Source: an uncultured Clostridia bacterium
GTDB lineage: Bacteria; Bacillota; Clostridia; Christensenellales; Borkfalkiaceae
Reading direction: 5' to 3'
NCBI GenBank assembly: GCA_947595585.1
Contig: CANQET010000015.1
Coordinates: 1 to 35,215 of the forward strand
Length of the DNA stretch: 35,215 nucleotides
In this document: piece after piece, positions 902-25,545 of the stretch
Position numbering within the stretch: the stretch's first letter is position 1
Layout: the number at the start of each line of letters is the position of its first letter
Program-made: the position numbers and the translations under genes
Notes under the pieces: generated by a model
Told to the model about the DNA's origin: nothing
The model's database searches: none
Seen by the model: the letters and a program-made list of their open reading frames with translations, nothing else

Positions 902-1459
902 TTATCTTCTTATCTCGACGATGCCGCCGTCGTACTCATAGAACCCATCGTAGCTGAACTGTTCCCCGTAGCTCTCGTAATCTATGTAGTTTTCAAGGCA
1001 TTCGGGGATCTGGATGCAGTCAACTTCATGCAGGAAGTAGTAGCCTAAATCAGCCCAATCCATATCGGGATAAAGGTAAATATCTTCATCCCAATCGTCC
1101 TCGCGGTCTTCCACCCGTTGTTTCCAATAGTGGTAGCCCTCGATGTCACAGTAGATAACGGCTTTCAGGAACTTTTCATCGTCGTCGAGAACGCCCGACT
1201 TTTTCAGCAACTCAAACAGGTCTTTCGGGTGAACATAATCCCAATTCACCGCGCCGCTGACTATAAAGTTCTCGATGTCCTGTATGAACAGTTCTTCGTC
1301 AATGCCATCGAGCTGAAAGCCTTCCTTTTTGAGTTCTTCCTCGATTTCTTCCCAATCGTCGTAATCGTTGAGCGTAAGCCATTTCGAGCCTAACGCCCGT
1401 TCGTTGCATTCGTTGTAACTGCCCCAAGAGCCGATAACAACTTTGACTTCATTTGTCAT
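902..1459 (-). CDS. ardA: anti-restriction protein ArdA
   Basis: ArdA is a DNA-mimic protein: an elongated, strongly acidic dimer that occupies the DNA-binding groove of type I restriction-modification enzymes, so that an entering plasmid or integrative element is not cut. The 185-residue length is in the normal range. Family hallmarks are visible: an N-terminal GSWGSYNECN strand with the following KWLTLNDY segment, the LGYYFLHE motif near residue 140, and IPECLENYIDYESYGEQF near 152-169. Asp and Glu are abundant throughout. The gene starts one base after the stop of the DUF4326 gene and shares its minus-strand operon. ArdA is almost always carried by mobile DNA, which is the best single argument that 1-2530 is an acquired segment. 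Confidence 0.88.
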   Translation of the reverse strand: MTNEVKVVIGSWGSYNECNERALGSKWLTLNDYDDWEEIEEELKKEGFQLDGIDEELFIQDIENFIVSGAVNWDYVHPKDLFELLKKSGVLDDDEKFLKAVIYCDIEGYHYWKQRVEDREDDWDEDIYLYPDMDWADLGYYFLHEVDCIQIPECLENYIDYESYGEQFSYDGFYEYDGGIVEIRR

Positions 1460-14382: not shown

Positions 14383-14982
14383 ATGCCGATCGCAAACATG
14401 AGTGACGAGATCAGGTGCCCTTCTTGCGGCGAACCGTGGACGATCGATCAGAAGGAATGCAACCACTGCGGTCGCCCCGTAGTGCTTCAGACGATGAAGG
14501 AAGCCGAGAGCGTTCCCGCACCTCAGCTCAATAAATTCGTCGTCACGCTGCGCCAAGCTTCGCAGCGGTGCGACGACGAACCCACCTTCCACCGCGCCCT
14601 CGCTTTCTGCTACCTGCGCCTCAAGCTCTATGATAAGGCCGCCGCCGCATTCGATCGCGCCATGGAAGAGGAGTTCGATAACCCCGAGACCTATTTCTAT
14701 GCGGCAGTATGTCTGCTCGGCGGGAAGAAAGCCTTCCAGACGCCGCGCCCCACGATCGATAAGATCGAGGAATACGTGAATGCCGCCATCGAGCTCGACC
14801 CCCGTGGCATTTTCTACTACTTCCTCGCATATATCCGTTACGATCACCACAAGCGGAAATTCTACAACGTCTCGCCCAACTGGCAGCAATACCTTGCGAT
14901 GGCAAGGCAGAGGGGAGTTACCGAGCGCGATATCCAGCAGCTCTTTGCGCTGCTCTGCGTTCCCCGCCCCGAAGTCATGTGA
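14383..14982 (+). CDS. zinc-ribbon and TPR-like protein (199 aa)
   Basis: The N-terminus carries a four-cysteine zinc ribbon (Cys12, Cys15 in CPSCG; Cys26, Cys29 in CNHCG). Residues about 50-130 read as TPR-like helical repeats (AFCYLRLKLYDKAAAAFDRA, then ETYFYAAVCLLGGKKAF and further helices), a protein-interaction scaffold. There is no TM segment. GGAGG lies seven bases before the ATG; a second Met at residue 6 is a possible alternative start. It is the first gene of a two-gene unit that ends at the terminator 15737-15771. The same kind of zinc ribbon occurs in the SPFH, TIR and protease proteins downstream, which ties this gene to the ensemble. Its exact role is unknown. Confidence 0.8.
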   Translation: MPIANMSDEIRCPSCGEPWTIDQKECNHCGRPVVLQTMKEAESVPAPQLNKFVVTLRQASQRCDDEPTFHRALAFCYLRLKLYDKAAAAFDRAMEEEFDNPETYFYAAVCLLGGKKAFQTPRPTIDKIEEYVNAAIELDPRGIFYYFLAYIRYDHHKRKFYNVSPNWQQYLAMARQRGVTERDIQQLFALLCVPRPEVM

Positions 14983-16368: not shown

Positions 16369-16397
16369 TTGACAAAGCCCGAAGTGTTTGCTATAAT
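16369..16397 (+). promoter_or_regulatory. sigma-A promoter of the ESCRT-like operon
   Basis: TTGACA (16369-16374), 17-base spacer, TATAAT (16392-16397). The seven genes that follow run to the terminator at 25476-25513 with no other clear promoter. Confidence 0.92.
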
Positions 16398-16461
16398 AAT
16401 TTTGTCAAGCATTTTGCACCTGTGCGCCGAAGACATCGGATGCGCAAAAAAGGAGAGAAAA

Positions 16462-17493
16462 ATGTTCGGTAGAAAACCGCAGATCATCAAGTTTGAACAG
16501 AACCATTGCCATGCTTCCGTCAACGACAACAACGTGCTCTTCGTGCGCGTGAAAGACGAAGTGCAGGGCAAGGACACGATGTTCGAAGTCCCCTTCACGC
16601 ACAATGCCTACGTCATCAAGGGCGGCGGCGACGGCAGATTTTACAAGAGCGGCACCTATGAGGTCTTCGACGACAAGAAGGAGATCAAGAATTGGAAGAA
16701 GGGCTACTCGGTGGATATCGTCTACATGCCCAAGGATACGAGCGTGCTCATCCTTTGGGGGACGCCCGAGCGCGTGAAGTACCGCGACGAAGCGAGCAAC
16801 AAGGTCGTGAGCGTGGGCGCCCGCGGGCAGTTCGGCATTACGATCACGAACCCCGAGCAATTCTTCCGCAAGGTCGTCGGCGTACGCACGGAGTTCGACC
16901 TCAACGATTTCAAGAAGCGCTTCACGGCGGCCGTCATCGATGAATTCGCAGATTGCTTCCTCCGCGTCGTCCGCGAGGAGAAGCTCACCTACGACCAATT
17001 CGACGCCAACCGCAAGCAGATCGGCAAGGCCGTCGGCAAGATCCTGAGCCCCAAATTCGAACAGAGCTGGGGTATTGCGCTCGTGGACTTCATCATCGAG
17101 TGGCTGGGCATCTCCGAAGAGGACAGCAGCGCCGTCGAAGACGCGGCCGCCGAGGTCCAGAAGCAGAAGAAGCTCAAGGAGTACCTCGCCGAGCTCGAGC
17201 GGCTCGACGATAAGCAGTGGGAGCGCGAGAAGTATCTCCGTCAGCTCGAACTGCAGGACCGCAACGCCTACTACGAGGTGCTGAAGGTCGTAGGGAACAG
17301 CGAAGGCAGACCCAAGCCCCAAGAGGAGCCGAAGTGCCCGAACTGCGGCCTGCCCTATAAGCCTACGGATAAATTCTGCCCGCACTGCGGCAAGCGTGTG
17401 AGCAAGGAACCCATCATTTGCCCCGATTGCGGCAAGGCAAACGAGAGCACGGCACTCTTCTGTGCCAATTGCGGCAAGAAGCTCGTAAACTAA
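16462..17493 (+). CDS. YdjI-like SPFH-domain protein with two C-terminal zinc ribbons
   Basis: This 343-residue protein has the layout of Bacillus YdjI (virion-core/SPFH family): an N-terminal SPFH region (residues about 20-210, with VLFVRVKDEVQGKDTMFEVP and a long FKKRFTAAVIDEFADCFLR helix), an alpha-helical coiled segment (225-270) and two zinc ribbons (Cys292, 295, 306, 309 and Cys320, 323, 334, 337). SPFH proteins form oligomeric rings or cages at membranes. In B. subtilis the relative is co-transcribed with PspA, itself an ESCRT-III-superfamily protein, which matches the neighbours here. There is no TM helix. The start at 16462 follows AGGAG; an upstream in-frame extension overlaps the promoter and is rejected. 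It is the first gene of the operon. Confidence 0.85.
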   Translation: MFGRKPQIIKFEQNHCHASVNDNNVLFVRVKDEVQGKDTMFEVPFTHNAYVIKGGGDGRFYKSGTYEVFDDKKEIKNWKKGYSVDIVYMPKDTSVLILWGTPERVKYRDEASNKVVSVGARGQFGITITNPEQFFRKVVGVRTEFDLNDFKKRFTAAVIDEFADCFLRVVREEKLTYDQFDANRKQIGKAVGKILSPKFEQSWGIALVDFIIEWLGISEEDSSAVEDAAAEVQKQKKLKEYLAELERLDDKQWEREKYLRQLELQDRNAYYEVLKVVGNSEGRPKPQEEPKCPNCGLPYKPTDKFCPHCGKRVSKEPIICPDCGKANESTALFCANCGKKLVN

Positions 17494-17511
17494 AAACAAG
17501 GAGAAATTACC

Positions 17512-17850
17512 ATGGCATTTTTCGGTTTATTCGGGAAGAAGAAGGGCGCGGCGAAGACTTCGGAAGACCGCGAACTCGTCAGCGAGAACGAGCGCTCGGT
17601 GAATGCGCTCATCGTCCTTGCGGACGGCGACGACGTACTCGTCGAAAAACTCAAGAACCTTCAGGAAAAGCTCAAGTATCTCATCGCCACCGACGACGGG
17701 AAGGTCATCGATTTCGATAAGAAGATCCGCAACCTCATCGGGGATCTGCGCATCGCCCTCACCAAGGCAGACGGGGAGACCAACAAGAAGGTGCAGAATC
17801 TTCTGCGCGATCTCGAGCTCACCCTTGCCGACCGCAACGCCAAACTTTGA
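17512..17850 (+). CDS. short helical protein with amphipathic N-terminus (112 aa)
   Basis: The protein begins MAFFGLFGKKKG, a short hydrophobic and basic stretch of the kind that inserts shallowly in membranes and is seen at the N-terminus of several ESCRT-III and PspA relatives. The rest (residues 20-112) is entirely helical, alternating hydrophobic and charged residues in two or three helices (VLVEKLKNLQEKLKYL, VIDFDKKIRNLIGDLRIAL, KKVQNLLRDLELTLADR). No family is recognised. GGAG lies ahead of the ATG, and it is followed eight bases later by the next gene. It may be a small partner or a nucleating subunit of the filaments inferred for its neighbours. Confidence 0.72.
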   Translation: MAFFGLFGKKKGAAKTSEDRELVSENERSVNALIVLADGDDVLVEKLKNLQEKLKYLIATDDGKVIDFDKKIRNLIGDLRIALTKADGETNKKVQNLLRDLELTLADRNAKL

Positions 17851-17858
17851 GGTAAATT

Positions 17859-18455
17859 ATGTGGCCCTTTAAGAGCAAATACGATAAATTGACCCGTGAA
17901 GAGGTCGTCTCCGCCATCTGCAAACTCGAGCAGGAGGCACAGGAGATCGAAGACGGGCTCGCGACCAAGCAAAAGCAGATCGATGAGCTCATGGCGAAGG
18001 GGAAGGCGGAGAAGTCGAAAGACGTCAAGCTCTTCTATGCGAAGAAGATCAACGCCCTCAAGACGGAGCGGGAAAACAGCGTACAGCGGGCGATGTATCT
18101 CATGTACAACGTCCAGCTCCTGCAGAAGCTCAAGACGGCGATCGACGACAACCAATTTTTCAAAAACACCTCCAACGTATCGCTCGGGAACTTGCTTGCC
18201 GATCAGAAGGGGCTTGCAAAGTTTTTGAACAAGACGTTGGGGACCCGTGTCGCTGCGGAGGATGTTCTCACCACCGCAGACGAGACCTTCCGTGCCGTCG
18301 AAGAGGCGTATGAGAAGAACGATACGATCTACGGCATGAGCAGCCAGGACGATGCGCTTCTCGCCATGTTCGAGACGGAGGAGCAGGTCGAAGACGAGCA
18401 GGCGATGTTCTCGGAGCATGCCGATAAGGCGCACGGCTCGGGCGAAGAGGAGTAA
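17859..18455 (+). CDS. ESCRT-III/Snf7-like coiled-coil protein 1 (198 aa)
   Basis: The N-terminus MWPFKSKYDKLTREE resembles the membrane-anchoring start of Snf7-type proteins. Residues 12-45 and 55-95 form a long basic helical hairpin (VSAICKLEQEAQEIEDGLA, KLFYAKKINALKTERENSV, QRAMYLMYNVQLLQKLKTAI). A shorter helical set follows (SLGNLLADQKGLAKFLNKTL), and the tail turns acidic (from about residue 165, DDALLAMFETEEQVEDE). The basic hairpin with an acidic C-terminal tail is the general ESCRT-III layout. The assignment is by architecture, not by a strict motif; a generic coiled-coil protein remains possible. The gene is tightly packed between its neighbours. Confidence 0.68.
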   Translation: MWPFKSKYDKLTREEVVSAICKLEQEAQEIEDGLATKQKQIDELMAKGKAEKSKDVKLFYAKKINALKTERENSVQRAMYLMYNVQLLQKLKTAIDDNQFFKNTSNVSLGNLLADQKGLAKFLNKTLGTRVAAEDVLTTADETFRAVEEAYEKNDTIYGMSSQDDALLAMFETEEQVEDEQAMFSEHADKAHGSGEEE

Positions 18456-18466
18456 GGAGGCAGAAA

Positions 18467-19033
18467 ATGGCAGCACCTACCAAAAAAGAGATGGAAAAAC
18501 GCATGCTCATCAAGAAGACCATCAACGAGATGAACAAGCAGATCCAGAAGCTCGAAGAGCAGAAGAAGACCTACATCGAAGCGGGCAGGCAGGCAAAGGA
18601 GAAGGGGCTCACGGCGCAGTATAATCTCGCGCTCTCGGGGCTCCGCATGACCATCATCCAGCAGCGCCGCGTCTATGAGATGAAGCTCAACTTCGAGATC
18701 ACTTCGCAGATGAAGGATATGACGAAGATGACGGGGGAATTCCTGCAGGGCATGAGCTCGCTCAGCAAGGATATGATGAAGCTCACCAAGGAGAAGGACT
18801 TCCTCAAGGTGCAGAAGCAGTTCAACGAGGCCATGATGGGCGTCGAGATGCAGACCGAGCAGATCGAAGACTTCATGGATGAGACCGAGTCTGCCTTCTC
18901 GACCGTCGCCCCCGGTTCCGAAGACGACAACAAGGAGATCGAATCGCTCTTCACCAACGAGGCCGCGAACGGCGCCGCCGCAGGTGCGATCGAGCGCGAA
19001 CTCGCGGAGCTCAAAAAACGCATGTCGGAGTGA
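18467..19033 (+). CDS. ESCRT-III/Vps2-like protein 2 with MIM1-like C-terminus (188 aa)
   Basis: Residues 6-75 form a basic helical hairpin (INEMNKQIQKLEEQKKTYIE, then AKEKGLTAQYNLALSGLRMT). Residues 76-140 follow the CHMP1-3/Vps2 pattern closely: an I/M-rich helix (FEITSQMKDMTKMTGEFLQG, MSSLSKDMMKLTKEKDFLKV), then QKQFNEAMMGVEMQTEQIED and an acidic FMDETESAF. The tail is acidic, and the last helix IERELAELKKRM (175-186) matches the MIM1 consensus L-x-x-R-L-x-x-L-K/R except that Glu178 replaces Arg. MIM1 is the segment by which ESCRT-III subunits bind the MIT domain of Vps4, and an MIT-like ATPase is encoded two genes downstream. No signal peptide or TM helix is present. GGAGG precedes the ATG. 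Confidence 0.75.
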   Translation: MAAPTKKEMEKRMLIKKTINEMNKQIQKLEEQKKTYIEAGRQAKEKGLTAQYNLALSGLRMTIIQQRRVYEMKLNFEITSQMKDMTKMTGEFLQGMSSLSKDMMKLTKEKDFLKVQKQFNEAMMGVEMQTEQIEDFMDETESAFSTVAPGSEDDNKEIESLFTNEAANGAAAGAIERELAELKKRMSE

Positions 19034-19055
19034 TCCGCAAAAAGGAAATACGCAA

Positions 19056-19081
19056 CGCCGCACGGGTCTCCCCGTGCGGCG
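19056..19081 (+). terminator. strong hairpin between the ESCRT-like gene and the TIR gene
   Basis: CGCCGCACGGG (19056-19066) and CCCGTGCGGCG (19071-19081) form a perfect 11-bp stem with a four-base loop. No T-tract follows, so it is more likely a transcript-stabilising or partly terminating element that lowers expression of the downstream genes than a full terminator. Confidence 0.5.
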
Positions 19082-19138
19082 CATTTCGGAATGTACAACT
19101 TTCCGTAAGGCAGCGAAAGAAGACCCAAGGGGAAGGGA

Positions 19139-22100
19139 ATGGATAACTTACATACCTACAACTGCAAGACGTGCGGAAATCCGCTCGATGAGCTCGTCGT
19201 CGCGTCGCAAAACGGGATCGTCAAATGCCCCATCTGCGAACATGTATGGACGATCGCGCGCAAGGAGGCTTCGCCCGACACGCTGTATTTTCTGCGTATG
19301 GGCGAACACGACCTCGATACCTGCAAATTCGAGGACGCCCGCGTCGCCTACGAGAAGGCCGCGGAGATCGATCGCAACGAGCCCGAGGCATACTTCGGCA
19401 AGGCGCTCGCCGCCTTCAAGGTACAGTACATCAAAGACGACGCAAGAAGGTGCCTTCAGCCCATCTGCCACACGTTCACCGATAAGAAATTCAGCGAAAA
19501 TATCGACTACAGGAAGGCACTTTCTCTCGCGACGCCCGAGCAACAGCAGCTCTACCGCAGCCGTGCCAAGGAGATCGAAGCGATCGCCGAGGAGTTCAAC
19601 CGTCTGCAGCAGGAGGGGCTCGATTATGATTGCTTCATCTGCGTCAAAGTCTCCGAGCTCGATGAAGCCGAGCGGGGCGGCGGCAGAAAGACCGAGGATA
19701 GCTCCCGTGCGACGGAGATCTACTACGACCTGATCGACGCGGGGCTCAAGCCCTTCTATTCCGAACGGGATGTGAAGAACCGCGCGGGCGTGGATTACGA
19801 GGCCCTCATCCTCTATGCGCTCTACACCTCGGAGTGTATGCTCATCGTCTGCAGCGACGAACGCTATCTCGAGACCAAGTGGATGCGCAGCGAGTATACC
19901 CGTTTCTCGGCGATGATCGCAAACGAAGAGAAGGAGCGGGACGCCATCACCTTTATTTTCAAGGGGACCCCCATCGAAAAACTGCCCGGGAGAAACGGCA
20001 AGATCCAGGGGATCGACTACGGTTTGCGGGGCGCCACCGATCGGATCATCAAGTTCGTGCAGAACCATACCGTGGAGGCCCGCCGCCGTCGTGAAGAGGC
20101 GAAGCACCGCGAACAGGAGCGGGAAGCCGAACTGCGCCGTGCCCTCGAAGAGCAGAAAGAGGAGCGGCGTGCCATCGAAGAACAACAGCGTGCCTTCGAG
20201 GCCCAGCTCAAGAAGATGCAGGCCTCGGGTGGCGGCGTCAGCGTGGAAAATCTACTTCTTCGTGCCGAGCAAGAGCTCATGGACGGGGAGACGGAGTCCG
20301 CCAAGAAATATTATACCCGTGCCCTCGAGACCGATCCGCGCAACGGCAACGTGTGGTGGGGGCAGTTCCTCATCGAACGCGGCGTGAAGAGCGAGGCCGA
20401 AATTTTGGAGCGGCTCGATTGGCAGTCGGTCGAGACGATCACCGCAAGCCGCAATTATACCAACGCCCTGCGCTATGCCGATGAGAAGCTCAAGGAGCGC
20501 ATCGGCGCCTTCCGTGCACAGATGGAGTCGCCCGCCCTCTGGTGGGGGAAGTTCCTCGGCGAGATGGGGGTGCAAAACGAGCAGGAGATCCTCGATACCG
20601 TCACCAAACAGCGCATCAAGGAAGTCAAGCAGAGCAAGAACTATAAGCTCGCCCAAAAGTATGCCGACGAGGCCTTTTCGGCGAGAATCGACGCCTTCGA
20701 AGAGGGCCTCAAGTCTCCCGATACGAACTTCGAACTCTTCCTGCAGGAGTTCTCCGTCGCCGACGAGCGCCAACTCATCGACGGCATCACGGAGAAGTCT
20801 CTCGAATCCATCGAGGCGAGCGACCTCTTCCGCACCGCAGATCGCGGGGCACAGGGGGCGTTGAAAGAGCGCATCGACCGCTTCAAGGGCGCCCTCTATT
20901 CGGGGGAGACGTGGTGGGCACGCCTGCTCGAGGAATTCAACGCGGGCAGCGACGAAAAACTCATCGGCGAGATGGATCCCAAGCTGCTCTCCCGCGTGGA
21001 GAGGAGCGATAACTACCGCAACGCCGTGAAGTACGCTTCGGGCGAATTCAAGGAGCGCCTCGAGCGCTTCCAGGATACCGTGTACGCGGGGGACATCTGG
21101 TGGGATAACTTCCTCGCGGAGTTTCGTATCGACGACGAAGAGGAGATCTTCGAACACATCCGCCCCGCGACGCTCAAACAGATCCAGGAGAGCCCTTCCT
21201 TCGATCTTCTCTCCAAATACGCAAAGGATGCGTCGCTCACGCGGCTCGAATCCTTCCGCAGCCGCCTCTATTCGGGCGAGCTTTGGTGGGAGGCCTTCCT
21301 GCGGGAATCGCATGTGAAGGAGCCCGCGGAACTTCTGCAGGATTACGACGACGCCCTGCGCCGTTCCATCCTGCAAAATCCCTATTTCGTCAACGCGCAA
21401 AAGTATGCGAGCAAGGAGTTTTCTCCCACGATCGTCGAGTTCGAAGAGCTGCTCTCCGAACATGCCAAAAACTACGAGGCGGCGAACAAGGAATGGGAGG
21501 AGATGCTCCATAGCTATAAGGTGAAGAACGTCGCCTCGCTCAACAGCTTGCGCGAGCCCATTTCGAGCAACATCCACTACATGAAGGCCGTCGAGTACGC
21601 GGAATGCGCCGAGGCGAATAAGCTCGCCGCAAAATTCCGTGCGGCGGCGGAGACGCAGGAGAGCCATGTGCTCGAAAACCTGCGCGAGGACGATAAGAAC
21701 CGCCGCATCGAAAAGCACAGGCGGCAGGCAGAACAGGCCAAGGCGGCGCGGGTCATCGTCGGCGCCGTCCTGCTCTTCGTCATTCCCTTCACCATCGCCA
21801 TGTTGCTCGAGAGCTTTGGGGCGCGGCTCGCGATGACGTATGTGCGCATCGCGATCGTCTCCGCGATCGCCATTCTCGCGATGCTGCTCTCTATCAAGCA
21901 CAGAAACGAGGGGATCGACGCCGTACGGAAGTATTTGCGCGGCATGGGGTGGAAATATGTGCTGCTCATCGTGTGTACCGTCGTGTCCAACTGGGCCGAG
22001 GCAGCCTATCATCATTCTCTTATCTATTATTACAGCCCCGATAACATCACCGCTTACTACATCTTCTCCTTGGCGATGCTCATCACCGTATCCTGCATCA

Positions 22101-22504
22101 CGTTCTTCTACCGTGCGAGCATTGCCGCATCGCTGCCCACGATCTTCTGCGGCATCCTCTACAACGTCAACATTTGGTTGTTCCATATCATTTGGGGTGA
22201 AAATTGTCTCCACTGGAGCCTGTTGCTCCTCTTCACGATCCTCGGCCTCCTCGCGGTGCTGCTCACCCTCATCGATCGCTACGATTCCGTGGCGGCGTGG
22301 ATCGTCTTCGGCGTCTATGCGGCGGTCACGGTGCTCTTCTTCTTCACGCTGTGGTATTGCGTCGCGAAGGTCGCGGGAAACGTCCCTCTCATCGATCTGG
22401 GAGACTTCCTGCTCGCACTCGTGCAGCTTATCGGGTGGATCATCGGCGCCGTCGTCGTGATCGGTATCGTGATCGGCGTCATCGCACATTTCTCAGGCAG
22501 CTAA
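19139..22504 (+). CDS. zinc-ribbon/TPR/TIR/62-residue-repeat multi-TM protein (1121 aa)
   Basis: Domains in order: zinc ribbon (Cys9, 12, 30, 33); TPR-like helices (about 48-100, with FEDARVAYEKAAEIDRNEPE); TIR domain (about 162-305, from DYDCFICVKVSE through LKPFYSERD and ECMLIVCSDERY to KWMRSEYTRF); charged coiled coil (about 312-365); six or seven repeats of exactly 62 residues beginning WWxxFL (406-780); a helical linker; and about eight TM helices (870-1115). TIR domains either scaffold signalling or cleave NAD; Glu252 in WMRSEY stands where NADase TIRs such as SARM1 keep their catalytic glutamate (WVHKE). Such zinc-ribbon TIR proteins occur in other Clostridia but have no known function. 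AGGGGAAGGG precedes the ATG. In this operon it is a candidate sensor or effector anchored in the membrane. Confidence 0.83.
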   Translation: MDNLHTYNCKTCGNPLDELVVASQNGIVKCPICEHVWTIARKEASPDTLYFLRMGEHDLDTCKFEDARVAYEKAAEIDRNEPEAYFGKALAAFKVQYIKDDARRCLQPICHTFTDKKFSENIDYRKALSLATPEQQQLYRSRAKEIEAIAEEFNRLQQEGLDYDCFICVKVSELDEAERGGGRKTEDSSRATEIYYDLIDAGLKPFYSERDVKNRAGVDYEALILYALYTSECMLIVCSDERYLETKWMRSEYTRFSAMIANEEKERDAITFIFKGTPIEKLPGRNGKIQGIDYGLRGATDRIIKFVQNHTVEARRRREEAKHREQEREAELRRALEEQKEERRAIEEQQRAFEAQLKKMQASGGGVSVENLLLRAEQELMDGETESAKKYYTRALETDPRNGNVWWGQFLIERGVKSEAEILERLDWQSVETITASRNYTNALRYADEKLKERIGAFRAQMESPALWWGKFLGEMGVQNEQEILDTVTKQRIKEVKQSKNYKLAQKYADEAFSARIDAFEEGLKSPDTNFELFLQEFSVADERQLIDGITEKSLESIEASDLFRTADRGAQGALKERIDRFKGALYSGETWWARLLEEFNAGSDEKLIGEMDPKLLSRVERSDNYRNAVKYASGEFKERLERFQDTVYAGDIWWDNFLAEFRIDDEEEIFEHIRPATLKQIQESPSFDLLSKYAKDASLTRLESFRSRLYSGELWWEAFLRESHVKEPAELLQDYDDALRRSILQNPYFVNAQKYASKEFSPTIVEFEELLSEHAKNYEAANKEWEEMLHSYKVKNVASLNSLREPISSNIHYMKAVEYAECAEANKLAAKFRAAAETQESHVLENLREDDKNRRIEKHRRQAEQAKAARVIVGAVLLFVIPFTIAMLLESFGARLAMTYVRIAIVSAIAILAMLLSIKHRNEGIDAVRKYLRGMGWKYVLLIVCTVVSNWAEAAYHHSLIYYYSPDNITAYYIFSLAMLITVSCITFFYRASIAASLPTIFCGILYNVNIWLFHIIWGENCLHWSLLLLFTILGLLAVLLTLIDRYDSVAAWIVFGVYAAVTVLFFFTLWYCVAKVAGNVPLIDLGDFLLALVQLIGWIIGAVVVIGIVIGVIAHFSGS
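20354..21469 (+). repeat. six in-frame 186-base repeats (62 residues each) within the TIR gene
   Basis: The repeat starts fall at residues 406, 468, 530, 592, 654 and 716, each 62 residues apart without insertions. Four are marked by Trp-Trp and a fifth by Trp-Trp at 716; only the third has Asn-Phe instead. Each unit contains FLxE, a short linker, a helix, S-x-x-Y/F-x-x-A-x-K/R-Y-A and a final ERIxxF helix. The DNA copies have diverged, so the repeats are old and kept at the protein level. A degenerate seventh unit follows at about residue 786. Confidence 0.8.
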
Positions 22505-22527
22505 ATCCTTATCAGGGAGGATAAATC

Positions 22528-24603
22528 ATGGCGGATATGAATTTGTTGAACGAAACCTTCGACCTCTACTACAAGAAGGCGAAGGAGTGCTTCGAAAAGA
22601 AGGACTTGATGCTCGCGCGGCGGTATTACTTGCTCGCCGCGGAGCAGATGCTCAAGATGGCGAAGGAGAGCAAGGGGGAGCTTCAGAAGGCCCGCTACAA
22701 TCGCGCCAAGAGCATCATCGAATTTGCCGACAGCATTCCCGCGGCTCGGCGCATGCAGAGCGGCGATAAGGTCGAGGACGGGGTACGCGTGAAGTCCAAT
22801 GAGAAGGTCACCCTCGAGGAGGCATTGAAGAGCCTCAATGCGCTCGAAGGGCTCGCGCGGGTCAAGAGCAAAGTGCGCGATTGGGTGGATACGATCAAGG
22901 TGTTCCAGATGCGCAAGGAACGCGGCTTCTCGGTGCCCGAGATGTCGTATCACATGGTGTTCACGGGCAATCCCGGCACGGGCAAGACGACCGTCGCCCG
23001 CATCATGGCACAGATCTATTGCGCCCTCGGCATCCTCTCGGAGGGGCAGCTCGTCGAAGTCGAACGCAGCGACCTCGTCGCGGGGTACGTCGGGCAGACG
23101 GCGATCAAGACGAAGGACGTCCTCAAAAAGGCCTACGGCGGGGTGCTCTTCATCGACGAGGCGTATACGCTCGTGGGTGCGGGGAACGACTTCGGACAGG
23201 AGGCCGTCGATACCATCCTCAAGGATATGGAAGATAAGCGCGACGACCTCGTGGTGATCGTGGCGGGGTACGATGAGCCCATGGAGGAATTCATCGCCTC
23301 CAACCCCGGGCTTCGTTCCCGCTTCAAGAACTTCATCCAATTCAGCGATTACAGCGGCGCCGAGCTCTACAACATCTTTGCGGGGCTGTGCACCAAGAGC
23401 CAATATGCGATCGATCCCGCCGCCCGTAGCATGCTTGCGGCCTACTTCGAAGAACTCTACGCGACGCGGGATAAGAACTTCGGCAACGGCAGAACGGTCC
23501 GCAACCTCTTCGAGGATATCGTCACCCGCCAATCCAAGCGCATCGCGCGGATGAGCAGCCCTTCCAACGACGATATGATGACGATCACCGCCGCCGATCT
23601 TCCCTTCACGTCGGTGCCCCATGCGCCCGCAGCGCCGCCCGAGCCGCCCAAGCCCGTGGAACCGCCCAAGCCCGTAGAGCCGCCCAAGGAAGAGAAGCCC
23701 ACGCCCGAGGAGAAGATCCTCGAAGAGGGGGGCGGAAACACGGATTTCAAATTCGATTGGGATAGCCTTCCCACGATCACCTTCGACGACATCGCCGGTC
23801 TCGACGACGTGAAGGAGACCGTGCGGGTGAAGGTGCTCCTTCCCCTGCAACACCCCGAAGTCTTCGAGGGCTATGTGCGCAAGAGCGGGGGCGGGCTGCT
23901 GCTATACGGCCCTCCCGGGACGGGCAAGACGATGGTCGCCGCCGCGATCGCCAACGAGATCGGGGCGAAGTTCTGTTCGGTGAAGCCCTCCGACCTCTTG
24001 AACCAGGGGGCAGGCAACACCGAAAAGGCGGTGCGTTCGCTCTTTGCACAGGCAAGGCAGTTCCCCTGCGCCGTCATCTATTTCGACGAGATGGATTCCA
24101 TTTCGCCCAAGTCCACCAAATCGCAATACGCCAAGCAGCTCCGTTCGGAATTTTTGGCACAGCTGCAGGGTATCGAGGAATACGGCAAGAAGAAGGATAA
24201 CATCCTCTTCCTCATAGCGGCGACCAACAAGCCGTGGGAGATCGACAGCGCATTCGTCCGCCCCGGCCGGTTCGGGACGCGGATCTATGTGGGTCTGCCC
24301 GACGACGCAGCCCGTGAATACATGATCTCGCGGCGCATCCAAAAGATCAAAGAGAAGGGGATCGTGCGCATTGCGGACGACGTCGATATCGCTTGGGCCG
24401 TCGCCGAGACCAACGGCTACAACGGCGCCGATATGACCAACTTCTTGGACCGCGTGGAGGAGATCTCCGCGCTGCGCGGCGTGACGACGGGCGTAAAGAC
24501 CATCGAAAAGCGCGATTTCGAGGAGGCGCTCACGCAGGTCACTTCCTCCGTACAGAGCGAAGATATCGAAAAGCTCCTCGCTTGGAAAGGCGACAATGAA
24601 TAA
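22528..24603 (+). CDS. MIT-like domain plus tandem AAA+ ATPase (CbbX/SpoVK-type then Vps4-like)
   Basis: Residues 5-76 form three helices with the MIT pattern (LYYKKAKECFEKKD, LMLARRYYLLAAEQMLKMAK, then KARYNRAKSIIEFADSIPA). The first AAA domain (about 95-345) is of the CbbX/SpoVK type: Walker A GNPGTGKT (147-154), SDLVAGYVGQTA, Walker B VLFIDEA (206-212), arginine finger region NPGLRSRF. A proline-rich linker (366-392) follows. The second AAA domain (about 410-680) has Vps4/katanin-clade features: FDDIAGLDDVKE, GPPGTGKT (461-468), VIYFDEMDS (516-524), SEFLAQLQGIE, AATNKPWEIDSAFVRPGRF and IYVGLPDDAARE. Vps4 disassembles ESCRT-III filaments by threading them; the ESCRT-III-like genes are two and three genes upstream. 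No TM helix is seen. Confidence 0.88.
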   Translation: MADMNLLNETFDLYYKKAKECFEKKDLMLARRYYLLAAEQMLKMAKESKGELQKARYNRAKSIIEFADSIPAARRMQSGDKVEDGVRVKSNEKVTLEEALKSLNALEGLARVKSKVRDWVDTIKVFQMRKERGFSVPEMSYHMVFTGNPGTGKTTVARIMAQIYCALGILSEGQLVEVERSDLVAGYVGQTAIKTKDVLKKAYGGVLFIDEAYTLVGAGNDFGQEAVDTILKDMEDKRDDLVVIVAGYDEPMEEFIASNPGLRSRFKNFIQFSDYSGAELYNIFAGLCTKSQYAIDPAARSMLAAYFEELYATRDKNFGNGRTVRNLFEDIVTRQSKRIARMSSPSNDDMMTITAADLPFTSVPHAPAAPPEPPKPVEPPKPVEPPKEEKPTPEEKILEEGGGNTDFKFDWDSLPTITFDDIAGLDDVKETVRVKVLLPLQHPEVFEGYVRKSGGGLLLYGPPGTGKTMVAAAIANEIGAKFCSVKPSDLLNQGAGNTEKAVRSLFAQARQFPCAVIYFDEMDSISPKSTKSQYAKQLRSEFLAQLQGIEEYGKKKDNILFLIAATNKPWEIDSAFVRPGRFGTRIYVGLPDDAAREYMISRRIQKIKEKGIVRIADDVDIAWAVAETNGYNGADMTNFLDRVEEISALRGVTTGVKTIEKRDFEEALTQVTSSVQSEDIEKLLAWKGDNE

Positions 24604-24661
24604 GCAAAATGTGAGAATGGGGTGCGAAAACACGCCTCATCCCATCGGATAGGAGGGTATT

Positions 24662-25417
24662 ATGGCATATAGTTGCAAACAATGCGGCGCTTCGCTTACC
24701 GCCAAGGGAAACAAATACGAGTGCCCGTTCTGCGGTACGACGTATGAGGCTTCGGACTTTGCGCCTAAGCAGCAGGCGGCGGCCGCGCCCGTACGCCAGC
24801 AGGGCGGCGCCGACGTCTTCGAACAGAACATCGACGGCATCCTCGAACTTCGCTGGCAGGGCGGGCAATACATCTACTCGGGCTCGGGCTTCCTCATCAG
24901 CGCGGGCGGGTATGCGATCACGAACACGCACGTCGTCACCTATGAAAACGGCAGATCGTGCGGGACGCTCACCGCACGCCTCAAGGGGCAGGAGATCCAG
25001 GCGAGCGTCGTCCTCCTCGGCGACGACCGCCACGGCAACGGCAGCGGGGTGGACCTCGCCCTCATCAAACTTTCCCGCCTTCCCTTGGGCGCCAAGCCGC
25101 TGCACTTCGAGCAGGCAGGCAACGTGCGCAACGGGGAGCAGGTCTACGTCATCGGCAACTCGCTCGGCTACGGCACCGCGATCACGAGCGGGATCGTCAG
25201 CGACCGTGCGCGCAAGATCGGGAATCAGACGTACGTCATGACCGACTGCGCCACCAACGGCGGAAACTCGGGCGGGCCGCTCTTCAATGCGAAGGGGAAC
25301 GTCATCGGCGTGCACGTCTCGGCACAGAACAATGCCGACGGCATGAAATACGCCATCCCCGTCGAATCGGTGAACGCCTTCCTCGAGAAAGCAAGGCGGG
25401 CGGGCGTCCGTCTGTAA
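24662..25417 (+). CDS. zinc-ribbon trypsin-like serine protease, apparently cytosolic (251 aa)
   Basis: An N-terminal zinc ribbon (Cys5, 8, 21, 24) is joined by an Ala/Gln linker to an HtrA-type trypsin fold (residues 55-250). The catalytic triad is complete: His90 in TNTHVV, Asp131 in GVDLALIKL and Ser203 in TNGGNSGGPLF. There is no PDZ domain and neither a signal peptide nor a TM anchor, so unlike HtrA/DegP the protease should stay in the cytosol. GGAGG lies nine bases ahead of the ATG. It is the last gene of the operon, before the terminator at 25476. Its ribbon resembles those of the SPFH and TIR proteins, suggesting recruitment to a common complex. Confidence 0.88.
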   Translation: MAYSCKQCGASLTAKGNKYECPFCGTTYEASDFAPKQQAAAAPVRQQGGADVFEQNIDGILELRWQGGQYIYSGSGFLISAGGYAITNTHVVTYENGRSCGTLTARLKGQEIQASVVLLGDDRHGNGSGVDLALIKLSRLPLGAKPLHFEQAGNVRNGEQVYVIGNSLGYGTAITSGIVSDRARKIGNQTYVMTDCATNGGNSGGPLFNAKGNVIGVHVSAQNNADGMKYAIPVESVNAFLEKARRAGVRL

Positions 25418-25475
25418 GGCCGCATACTTTCGGCGTTTTGCAAGGCAGAGCGCGGAAAAATTCAAGATATCGCAC

Positions 25476-25513
25476 GGCGCGCGGAGAAAATTTGCTCCCG
25501 CGCCTGATTTTTT
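25476..25513 (+). terminator. terminator of the ESCRT-like operon
   Basis: GGCGCGCGGAG pairs with CTCCCGCGCC (one bulged base) around an AAAATTTG loop and is followed by TGATTTTTT. Confidence 0.8.
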
Positions 25514-25545
25514 CATAAAAGCTTGGAAAAAATGCCTTGAAAGGC

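Follow-up and report, generated by a model that had tools for sequence, protein, structure and literature searches.

Systems with both ESCRT-III and Vps4 genes are, according to Makarova 2024 (PMC10936438), restricted to archaea and eukaryotes. The locus described here raises the question of whether a bacterium can encode an ESCRT-III-like protein together with an MIT-bearing ATPase, and what such a pair would do beside SPFH, TIR and protease genes. It lies in a stretch of 35,215 nucleotides (referred to as the window; contig CANQET010000015.1 of assembly GCA_947595585.1) from an uncultured Clostridia bacterium, the genome of which measures 1.69 Mb in 30 contigs and is 97% complete. Seven co-directional genes, here named A to G, run from one promoter to one terminator-like hairpin (Table 1). 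By its sequence, protein D is a member of an ESCRT-III/Snf7-like family found in bacteria, and the N-terminal domain of ATPase F is MIT-like when judged by its family rather than by the window copy alone.

The assignment of D draws on profile comparisons with hhalign, for which the ESCRT-III reference sequences were mostly animal. A profile of 24 D sequences matched four human ESCRT-III proteins at 95% (score 56.6, 127 collinear columns), and 62 D sequences matched 64 ESCRT-III sequences at 97% (score 77.1, 165 columns) with a reversed control of 23.1. Across runs the match extended over 126-165 collinear columns, while reversed and column-shuffled controls scored 23.1 at most, and five column shuffles reached no more than 14.6. 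Pfam searches point to the same family. Among 24,736 Pfam models, Snf7 was matched by 8 of 24 D family members at E<=0.05 and every other family by two at most; at E<=0.01 the count was 6 of 41, again with no other family above two. The D protein of the related locus L094 (L094:3992-4567), which sits in the same gene context, exceeds the Snf7 cut-off of 27.3 bits (34.0 bits, E 2.8e-8), and that of L097 falls just below it (26.9 bits).

The charge distribution of D is consistent with this assignment. ESCRT-III proteins have a basic N-terminal half and an acidic C-terminal half. The same polarity, taken as a basic first 75 residues and an acidic region after residue 95, was found in 52 of 56 standalone D proteins, and the halves of the window's D carry charges of +9 and -10. 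The MIM1 consensus has a spacing like that of the D tail, with an Arg that is conserved in eukaryotes. A tail of the IxxELxxLK type, with its hydrophobic spacing and final K/R, occurs in 31 of the 56 standalone proteins (200 shuffles: mean 1.3, maximum 8); the stricter MIM1 pattern fits one of the 56, and the MIM1 Arg is not conserved in D tails. The identification of D as PspA was considered and ruled out, as D scored 16-20 against a two-sequence PspA/Vipp1 profile and a search of the source genome for PspA_IM30 (PF04012) gave no match. With these small profiles the known relation of ESCRT-III to PspA itself scored 19.3, and because the scores between D and ESCRT-III exceed this value, D is by this measure nearer to ESCRT-III than PspA is.

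For the N-terminal domain of F, a profile of 48 sequences matched MIT at 89.5% (score 33.6) over 64 columns, which is the whole domain, and the reversed control scored 17.3. As a yardstick, archaeal MIT compared with eukaryotic MIT gave 89.7% (35.6). When 31 members of the domain family were searched against Pfam, MIT was found in one (locus L095) and TPR_2 weakly in four. The L095 domain matched Pfam MIT with an E of about 1.1e-6 to 1.3e-6 and 28.9 bits, the cut-off being 30. Precomputed Pfam annotation of its 14 database homologues (70-100% identity) lists MIT in nine and Vps4_C in three, with both in one. The MIT-like domain proposed in the original prediction is therefore borne out at the level of the family, by the 89.5% profile match and by these nine homologues.

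Between its MIT-like and Vps4-like parts, F contains a whole CbbX/SpoVK-type AAA module (residues 101-358) that was missing from the original prediction. The classical AAA module shares 40% identity with VPS4A (155 bits) and 36% with p97 D2 (172 bits), and the top PDB chains for the AAA region of F were those of p97, whose two domains add up. In the tails of ten family members, Vps4_C was above its cut-off in four, below it in four and absent from two; this Pfam family is not specific to Vps4. The predicted Vps4-like module thus stands as an AAA of the Cdc48/Vps4 type, with similarity to both p97 D2 and VPS4A. F as Vps4 proper is not claimed, given that its alignments contain no Vps4 beta-domain insertion and that p97 D2 scores as high. 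The module is termed Vps4-like in use because of these two points and the borderline Vps4_C match.

The motor attached to the MIT-like domain changes between loci. Of 49 proteins with this domain, 15 are double ATPases, in all of which both Walker A motifs are intact, 22 have the classical AAA, 7 a CbbX-type AAA (one of them, in L086, interrupted by a contig end) and 5 another motor; in two of these last (L030, L031) Pfam detects a RuvB-like motor and a TnsA-like domain. D itself is fused to a motor in two cases, a D-RuvB-TnsA-like protein (L035:5974-8676, minus strand) and a D-FtsK protein (L039:1427-3307, minus strand). Motors thus bear either the MIT-like domain or D itself, which suggests that the MIT-like domain is the part that meets D. 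Separately, an ESCRT-III-like domain is fused to a CbbX/RuvB-like AAA at L102:6966-8633 (minus strand), and D-bearing proteins of 511-637 amino acids also occur in L099, L100 and L101.

The joint occurrence of D and the MIT-like domain was followed across genomes; the window's own genome is counted in every tally, and the tallies cover related, non-independent genomes. D was found in 11 of 121 close relatives, in 36 of the order's 297 genomes, spread over 20 of 125 genera, in 10 of 391 genomes of the class (three of which, the own genome included, match nearly the whole profile) and in 1 of 398 genomes of the phylum, which is the window's own. The MIT-like domain is present in 35 of the 297 order genomes, and 32 genomes have both. 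Genomes with D only (G099, G218, G289 and G387) match profile columns 95-180 only, in frames of ~810 amino acids, and those with the domain only (G670, G688 and G693) have weak MIT-like matches (E 4e-4, 2e-6 and 3e-4). Fisher's test on this co-occurrence, which treats the genomes as independent although they are not, gives 7e-40 without the four partial genomes and 4e-35 with them.

At the level of loci, 48 non-redundant examples were obtained after removal of the duplicates L038, L080, L081 and L082, and their genes were counted with hidden Markov models trained on the same loci. Thirty of the 48 are well-flanked, with 4.5 kb or more of sequence to either side of D, and the other 18 were excluded. 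Of these 30 loci, 28 contain the MIT-like ATPase and 27 SPFH; B occurs in 19, C and TIR in 18 each, and a trypsin-like protease in 13. At L036 (8982-9563) and L096 (9123-9704), D stands with SPFH and B, and the ATPase is not nearby but on other contigs of the same genomes. Ten relatives were compared for gene order, nine metagenome-assembled genomes labelled Clostridia or Clostridiales bacterium and one labelled "uncultured bacterium". The order A-B-C-D followed by F, with or without E in between, is kept in all eight that reach that far (L001-L008; 46-82% identity); L009 and L010 start too near D to be judged. Conservation of the neighbourhood, which the original prediction had left to a survey of gene co-occurrence and gene order, was thus found in both respects.

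The genes surrounding this core encode a probable membrane protein and candidate effectors. Judged by its domains, A is likely a membrane scaffold. E, which combines a zinc ribbon, TPR and TIR, is a likely effector and sensor. Its TIR domain contains WMRSE, a W-x-x-N/S-E motif at the place where TIR NADases have their catalytic Glu. This Glu motif is kept in 24 of 30 TIR domains, and the triad motifs of the protease in 17 of 17. The identities predicted earlier for A (a YdjI-like SPFH protein, with Band_7_1 and C-terminal zinc ribbons), for the TIR protein E and for protease G have therefore held. Between the TIR domain and the hydrophobic part of E, the DNA repeats at multiples of 186 nucleotides (62 residues; window 20352-21448, plus strand). 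TIR_2 was above cut-off in all eight E-like proteins tested; in these the zinc ribbon, TPR and TIR are kept and the C-termini vary, with BspA-type leucine-rich repeats (LRR_5) above cut-off in five, ribosomal L12 in one and 4Fe-4S in one. The protein after F in L001 has leucine-rich repeats and no TIR. Such TIR proteins include one with 4Fe-4S ferredoxin-type repeats and leucine-rich repeats (L008:11104-13845, plus strand) and one with a ribosomal L7/L12 C-terminal domain (L005:12955-16662, plus strand).

Table 1. Features of the A-G operon, in window positions, with the evidence for each.
Feature	Position	Strand	Evidence
Promoter, TTGACA-17-TATAAT with TG ahead of the -10	16369..16397	+	12/12 consensus matches
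A, YdjI-type SPFH (Band_7_1) with C-terminal double zinc ribbon; ATG start at 16462	16462..17493	+	Band_7_1 E 4.9e-15; Zn_Ribbon_1 E 1.4e-12
B, short helical protein, N-terminus MAFFGLFGKKKG	17512..17850	+	No match to a known family at or over its cut-off
C, coiled-coil protein, its N-half basic and its C-half acidic; starts MWPFKSK	17859..18455	+	Sequence, profile comparisons
D, ESCRT-III/Snf7-like protein	18467..19033	+	Profile comparison, Pfam of relatives, charge polarity
MIM1-like C-terminal motif of D, IERELAELK	18989..19015	+	Pattern search of D tails
E, zinc ribbon-TPR-TIR-repeat protein; C-terminus with several hydrophobic stretches of membrane type	19139..22504	+	Pfam, sequence
TIR domain of E, residues 186-294	19694..20020	+	TIR_2 over its cut-off (E 3.6e-8)
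F, MIT-like domain, CbbX/SpoVK-type AAA and Cdc48/Vps4-type AAA	22528..24603	+	Pfam and profiles; both Walker A intact
MIT-like domain of F, residues 3-70	22534..22737	+	Family profile, Pfam of relatives
Classical AAA of F, residues 414-687, with Vps4_C-like tail	23767..24588	+	21.0 bits, cut-off 21.3
G, zinc ribbon and trypsin-like (HtrA-type) serine protease, H-D-S motifs	24662..25417	+	Trypsin_2 E 3.3e-27
Terminator-like hairpin and T run	25476..25513	+	Sequence inspection and fold

The reading to which we give an even chance is that the operon encodes a membrane-bound ESCRT-like machine that would keep its TIR and protease effectors on standby for attack by phage or damage to the membrane. 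Its basis is the sequence families, their joint conservation, and the exchange of motors and effectors while D, the MIT-like ATPase and SPFH persist as the core. On this reading the machine would be accessory and membrane-associated and would likely control its TIR and protease effectors in phage defence. From sequence we infer filament formation, membrane binding, binding of the tail by MIT, NAD cleavage and defence, and they could be combined as follows. A would collect at the membrane and seed a filament of D, perhaps together with C and B. The MIT-like domain of F would bind the D tail, and its AAA rings would thread subunits and so turn the filament over. E and G may dock through zinc ribbons of the type also present on A. 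If the filament became trapped or overgrown, for example at a membrane breached by phage, E would cleave NAD, G would cut its targets and the cell would be stopped. That the state of the filament gates the effectors is proposed because the core is like a membrane filament with its motor, the TIR-LRR (leucine-rich repeat) and protease partners change, and occurrence is patchy. Patchy occurrence and changing partners of this kind resemble conflict systems, as presented by Kaur 2020 (PMC7159879). A more ambitious form of the proposal, which we hold tentatively and regard as somewhat less than an even bet, is a complete bacterial ESCRT-III/MIT-ATPase immune platform, with an SPFH-anchored filament as sensor, the MIT-AAA protein as timer and TIR-LRR and protease proteins as executioners, which would be a membrane-based counterpart of an inflammasome, assembled from ESCRT parts outside archaea and eukaryotes.

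A number of results weigh against an ESCRT-like defence machine, and several concern the assignment of D. The window's D matches Pfam Snf7 with an E of 0.0015 and 18.6 bits, below the cut-off given above. When six D subgroups were compared with ESCRT-III singly, the top values were 44-48%: the window-like subgroup alone gave 44% (33.1), and second copies of type II reached 48% across 43 columns, followed by 28% for type II and III first copies, 10% for the single D copy of genome G042 and 3% for type IV first copies. The two motor-fused D domains showed no similarity to the ESCRT-III profile, and the profile of 24 D sequences, searched against all PDB sequences, retrieved no ESCRT-III chain. 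The original prediction had named two ESCRT-III-like coiled-coil proteins; D stands as one by its profiles and the L094 Snf7 match, and C is not supported as one, as its 25 sequences scored 25.2 against the ESCRT-III profile and 25.5 in the reversed control. A profile of ten C sequences matched neither ESCRT-III nor PspA nor D, and found no ESCRT-III chain among PDB sequences. With 25 sequences, C matched D weakly over its full length (14.6%, 27.2 over 162 columns; reversed 13.4), and the N-half is positive in 23 and the C-half negative in all 25. It is possible, from these sequence comparisons, that C is a distant and divergent paralogue of D.

Further points on the same side concern F, the composition of the loci and their role in defence. 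The N-terminal domain of the window's F has no MIT match in Pfam. The profile of 48 MIT-like sequences also matched TPR (82%, 29.0, 28 columns), and with 14 or 17 sequences TPR (79% and 68%) scored over MIT (19% and 44%). MIT compared with TPR gave 92.9% (37.8 over 19 columns), so that MIT is itself TPR-like. A search of all PDB sequences with the profile of 14 MIT-like sequences returned 16 matches, none of them an MIT chain; at the top stood "Orf c02003 protein", along with designed TPR proteins. The missing Vps4 beta-domain belongs here as well. Among the 30 well-flanked loci, two have no nearby MIT-like ATPase and three no SPFH, and the counts of TIR and protease mean that the effectors are not fixed; 6 of the 30 TIR domains are without the Glu motif. 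In some variants, the RuvB-TnsA-like and FtsK partners suggest a link to DNA and not to the membrane. No match to D was obtained by tblastn against plasmids and phages, and PADLOC named no whole defence system in the operon, its matches to individual proteins including IetA for F, RT-protease for G and, weakly, PtuB1 for D (E 5.4e-4).

The alternative that survives best assigns the same ESCRT-like machine to membrane upkeep. SPFH, D and F would then repair or remodel a stressed envelope in the manner of PspA and YdjI in B. subtilis, and the TIR and protease proteins would be regulatory or serve quality control instead of acting against phage. We consider this unlikely, although several features speak for it: A is of the YdjI type, and YdjI is needed for PspA at the membrane (PMC8581546); G is HtrA-like; and, as no PspA was found in the genome, D could fill its place. 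A patchy distribution (36 of 297 genomes) and shifting TIR-LRR and nuclease-like partners are unlike housekeeping repair. A conflict system aimed at nucleic acid, where D and the MIT-like domain would serve as no more than protein-protein connectors and no membrane is remodelled, is a distinctly improbable alternative. It would account for the variants with RuvB-like AAA and TnsA-like domains, the D-FtsK fusion and an SNF2/helicase protein that neighbours D in one variant, and it is opposed by the SPFH gene in 27 of 30 well-flanked loci, the hydrophobic stretches that the window's E has at its C-terminus, and the hydrophobic-basic N-termini of A, B and C. That D is an ordinary coiled coil with a chance likeness to ESCRT-III, and F a CbbX-Cdc48 double ATPase whose N-domain is TPR-like, is very improbable: the PDB profile searches without ESCRT-III or MIT chains and the TPR scores near or over MIT favour it, and it is contradicted by the failure of reversed and shuffled controls, the L094 D above the curated Snf7 cut-off, the nine of 14 L095 homologues that carry Pfam MIT, and the 32 genomes shared by D and the MIT-like domain.

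The favoured ESCRT-like machine with effectors can be set against known systems. It is like archaeal and eukaryotic ESCRT-III with MIT-Vps4 in that an ESCRT-III-like protein stands beside an MIT-like-Cdc48/Vps4-type ATPase, and it differs in being bacterial, in its extra CbbX-type AAA, in having no Vps4 beta-domain and in its TIR, LRR and protease partners (Makarova 2024, PMC10936438). Archaeal Meth_adaptin loci in the same paper encode an SPFH protein that also has a coiled coil and a zinc ribbon and is close to A. In some bacteria, Snf7-clade or PspA genes lie beside AAA ATPases, for which ATP-dependent membrane remodelling akin to Snf7-Vps4 has been proposed; one double-AAA form with an inactive N-terminal AAA and bacterial VPS4-like genes without snf7 were also described (Ravi 2024, PMC11237479). 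A bacterial ESCRT-like pairing is therefore not wholly new. The operon differs from these cases in its two intact Walker A motifs and in the joint presence of D, the MIT-like ATPase, SPFH and TIR, and the main-text portions of that paper name no bacterial MIT, SPFH or TIR partner.

The B. subtilis pspA-ydjG-ydjH-ydjI operon likewise pairs a zinc-finger SPFH protein with a protein of the ESCRT-III superfamily; YdjI, which has a zinc-finger motif near its C-terminus, is needed there to bring PspA to the membrane (PMC8581546). That operon has no ATPase, TIR or protease, and D of the present operon is not PspA. In NTP-dependent conflict systems, too, TIR and trypsin-like effectors can be exchanged around a core NTPase, whereas the cores there are vWA-MoxR and others, and the terms "ESCRT" and "Snf7" have 0 occurrences in the main text (Kaur 2020, PMC7159879). 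In the literature searched, which was thin for subscription journals, no bacterial set of ESCRT-III-like protein, MIT-ATPase and TIR was found, and neither was the MIT-like domain with SPFH and TIR or protease effectors as one conserved set.

The layout of seven co-directional genes between one promoter and one terminator, as claimed in the original prediction, was confirmed by the perfect promoter and by the hairpin. In a 10-kb region, five promoter sites of at least 9/12 were found where shuffles lead one to expect 3.2, and the operon promoter was the sole 12/12 site. RNA folding of the terminator region (25420-25530) gave z = -2.3; the hairpin was absent from the output of the promoter and terminator scan, and its stem is bulged in the fold. 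Just upstream of the operon lies a gene for a zinc ribbon and TPR protein (14383-14982, plus strand) that is built like the N-terminus of E and is possibly a loose partner of the operon. Near one contig end there is a mobile-element mark, an ArdA antirestriction protein (905-1459, minus strand; Pfam E 5.5e-14). The gene after the operon, judged from its sequence, presumably encodes a PPDK-like protein. Upstream of that next gene, no clean empty site was found in 16 same-genus stretches, of which L146 covers only ~0.8 kb, and one genome among them, G023, has the system elsewhere. When A, D, E, F and G were searched against these 16 stretches by tblastn, the single match was one AAA module of F at 34% in L145, and the upstream genes of the window were likewise not found there. 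A PPDK match at G087:C11:87999-88679 lies in an open frame of 24,257 amino acids, possibly a run of N.

The occurrence in bacteria of an ESCRT-III-like protein and an MIT-like ATPase, along with an SPFH anchor and TIR effectors, is relevant to the origin or spread of ESCRT. Such a set is also small enough for filament, motor and effector to be tested side by side. As the motors are swapped and the MIT-like domain is retained, this family tests the idea of MIT as a portable filament-binding tag.

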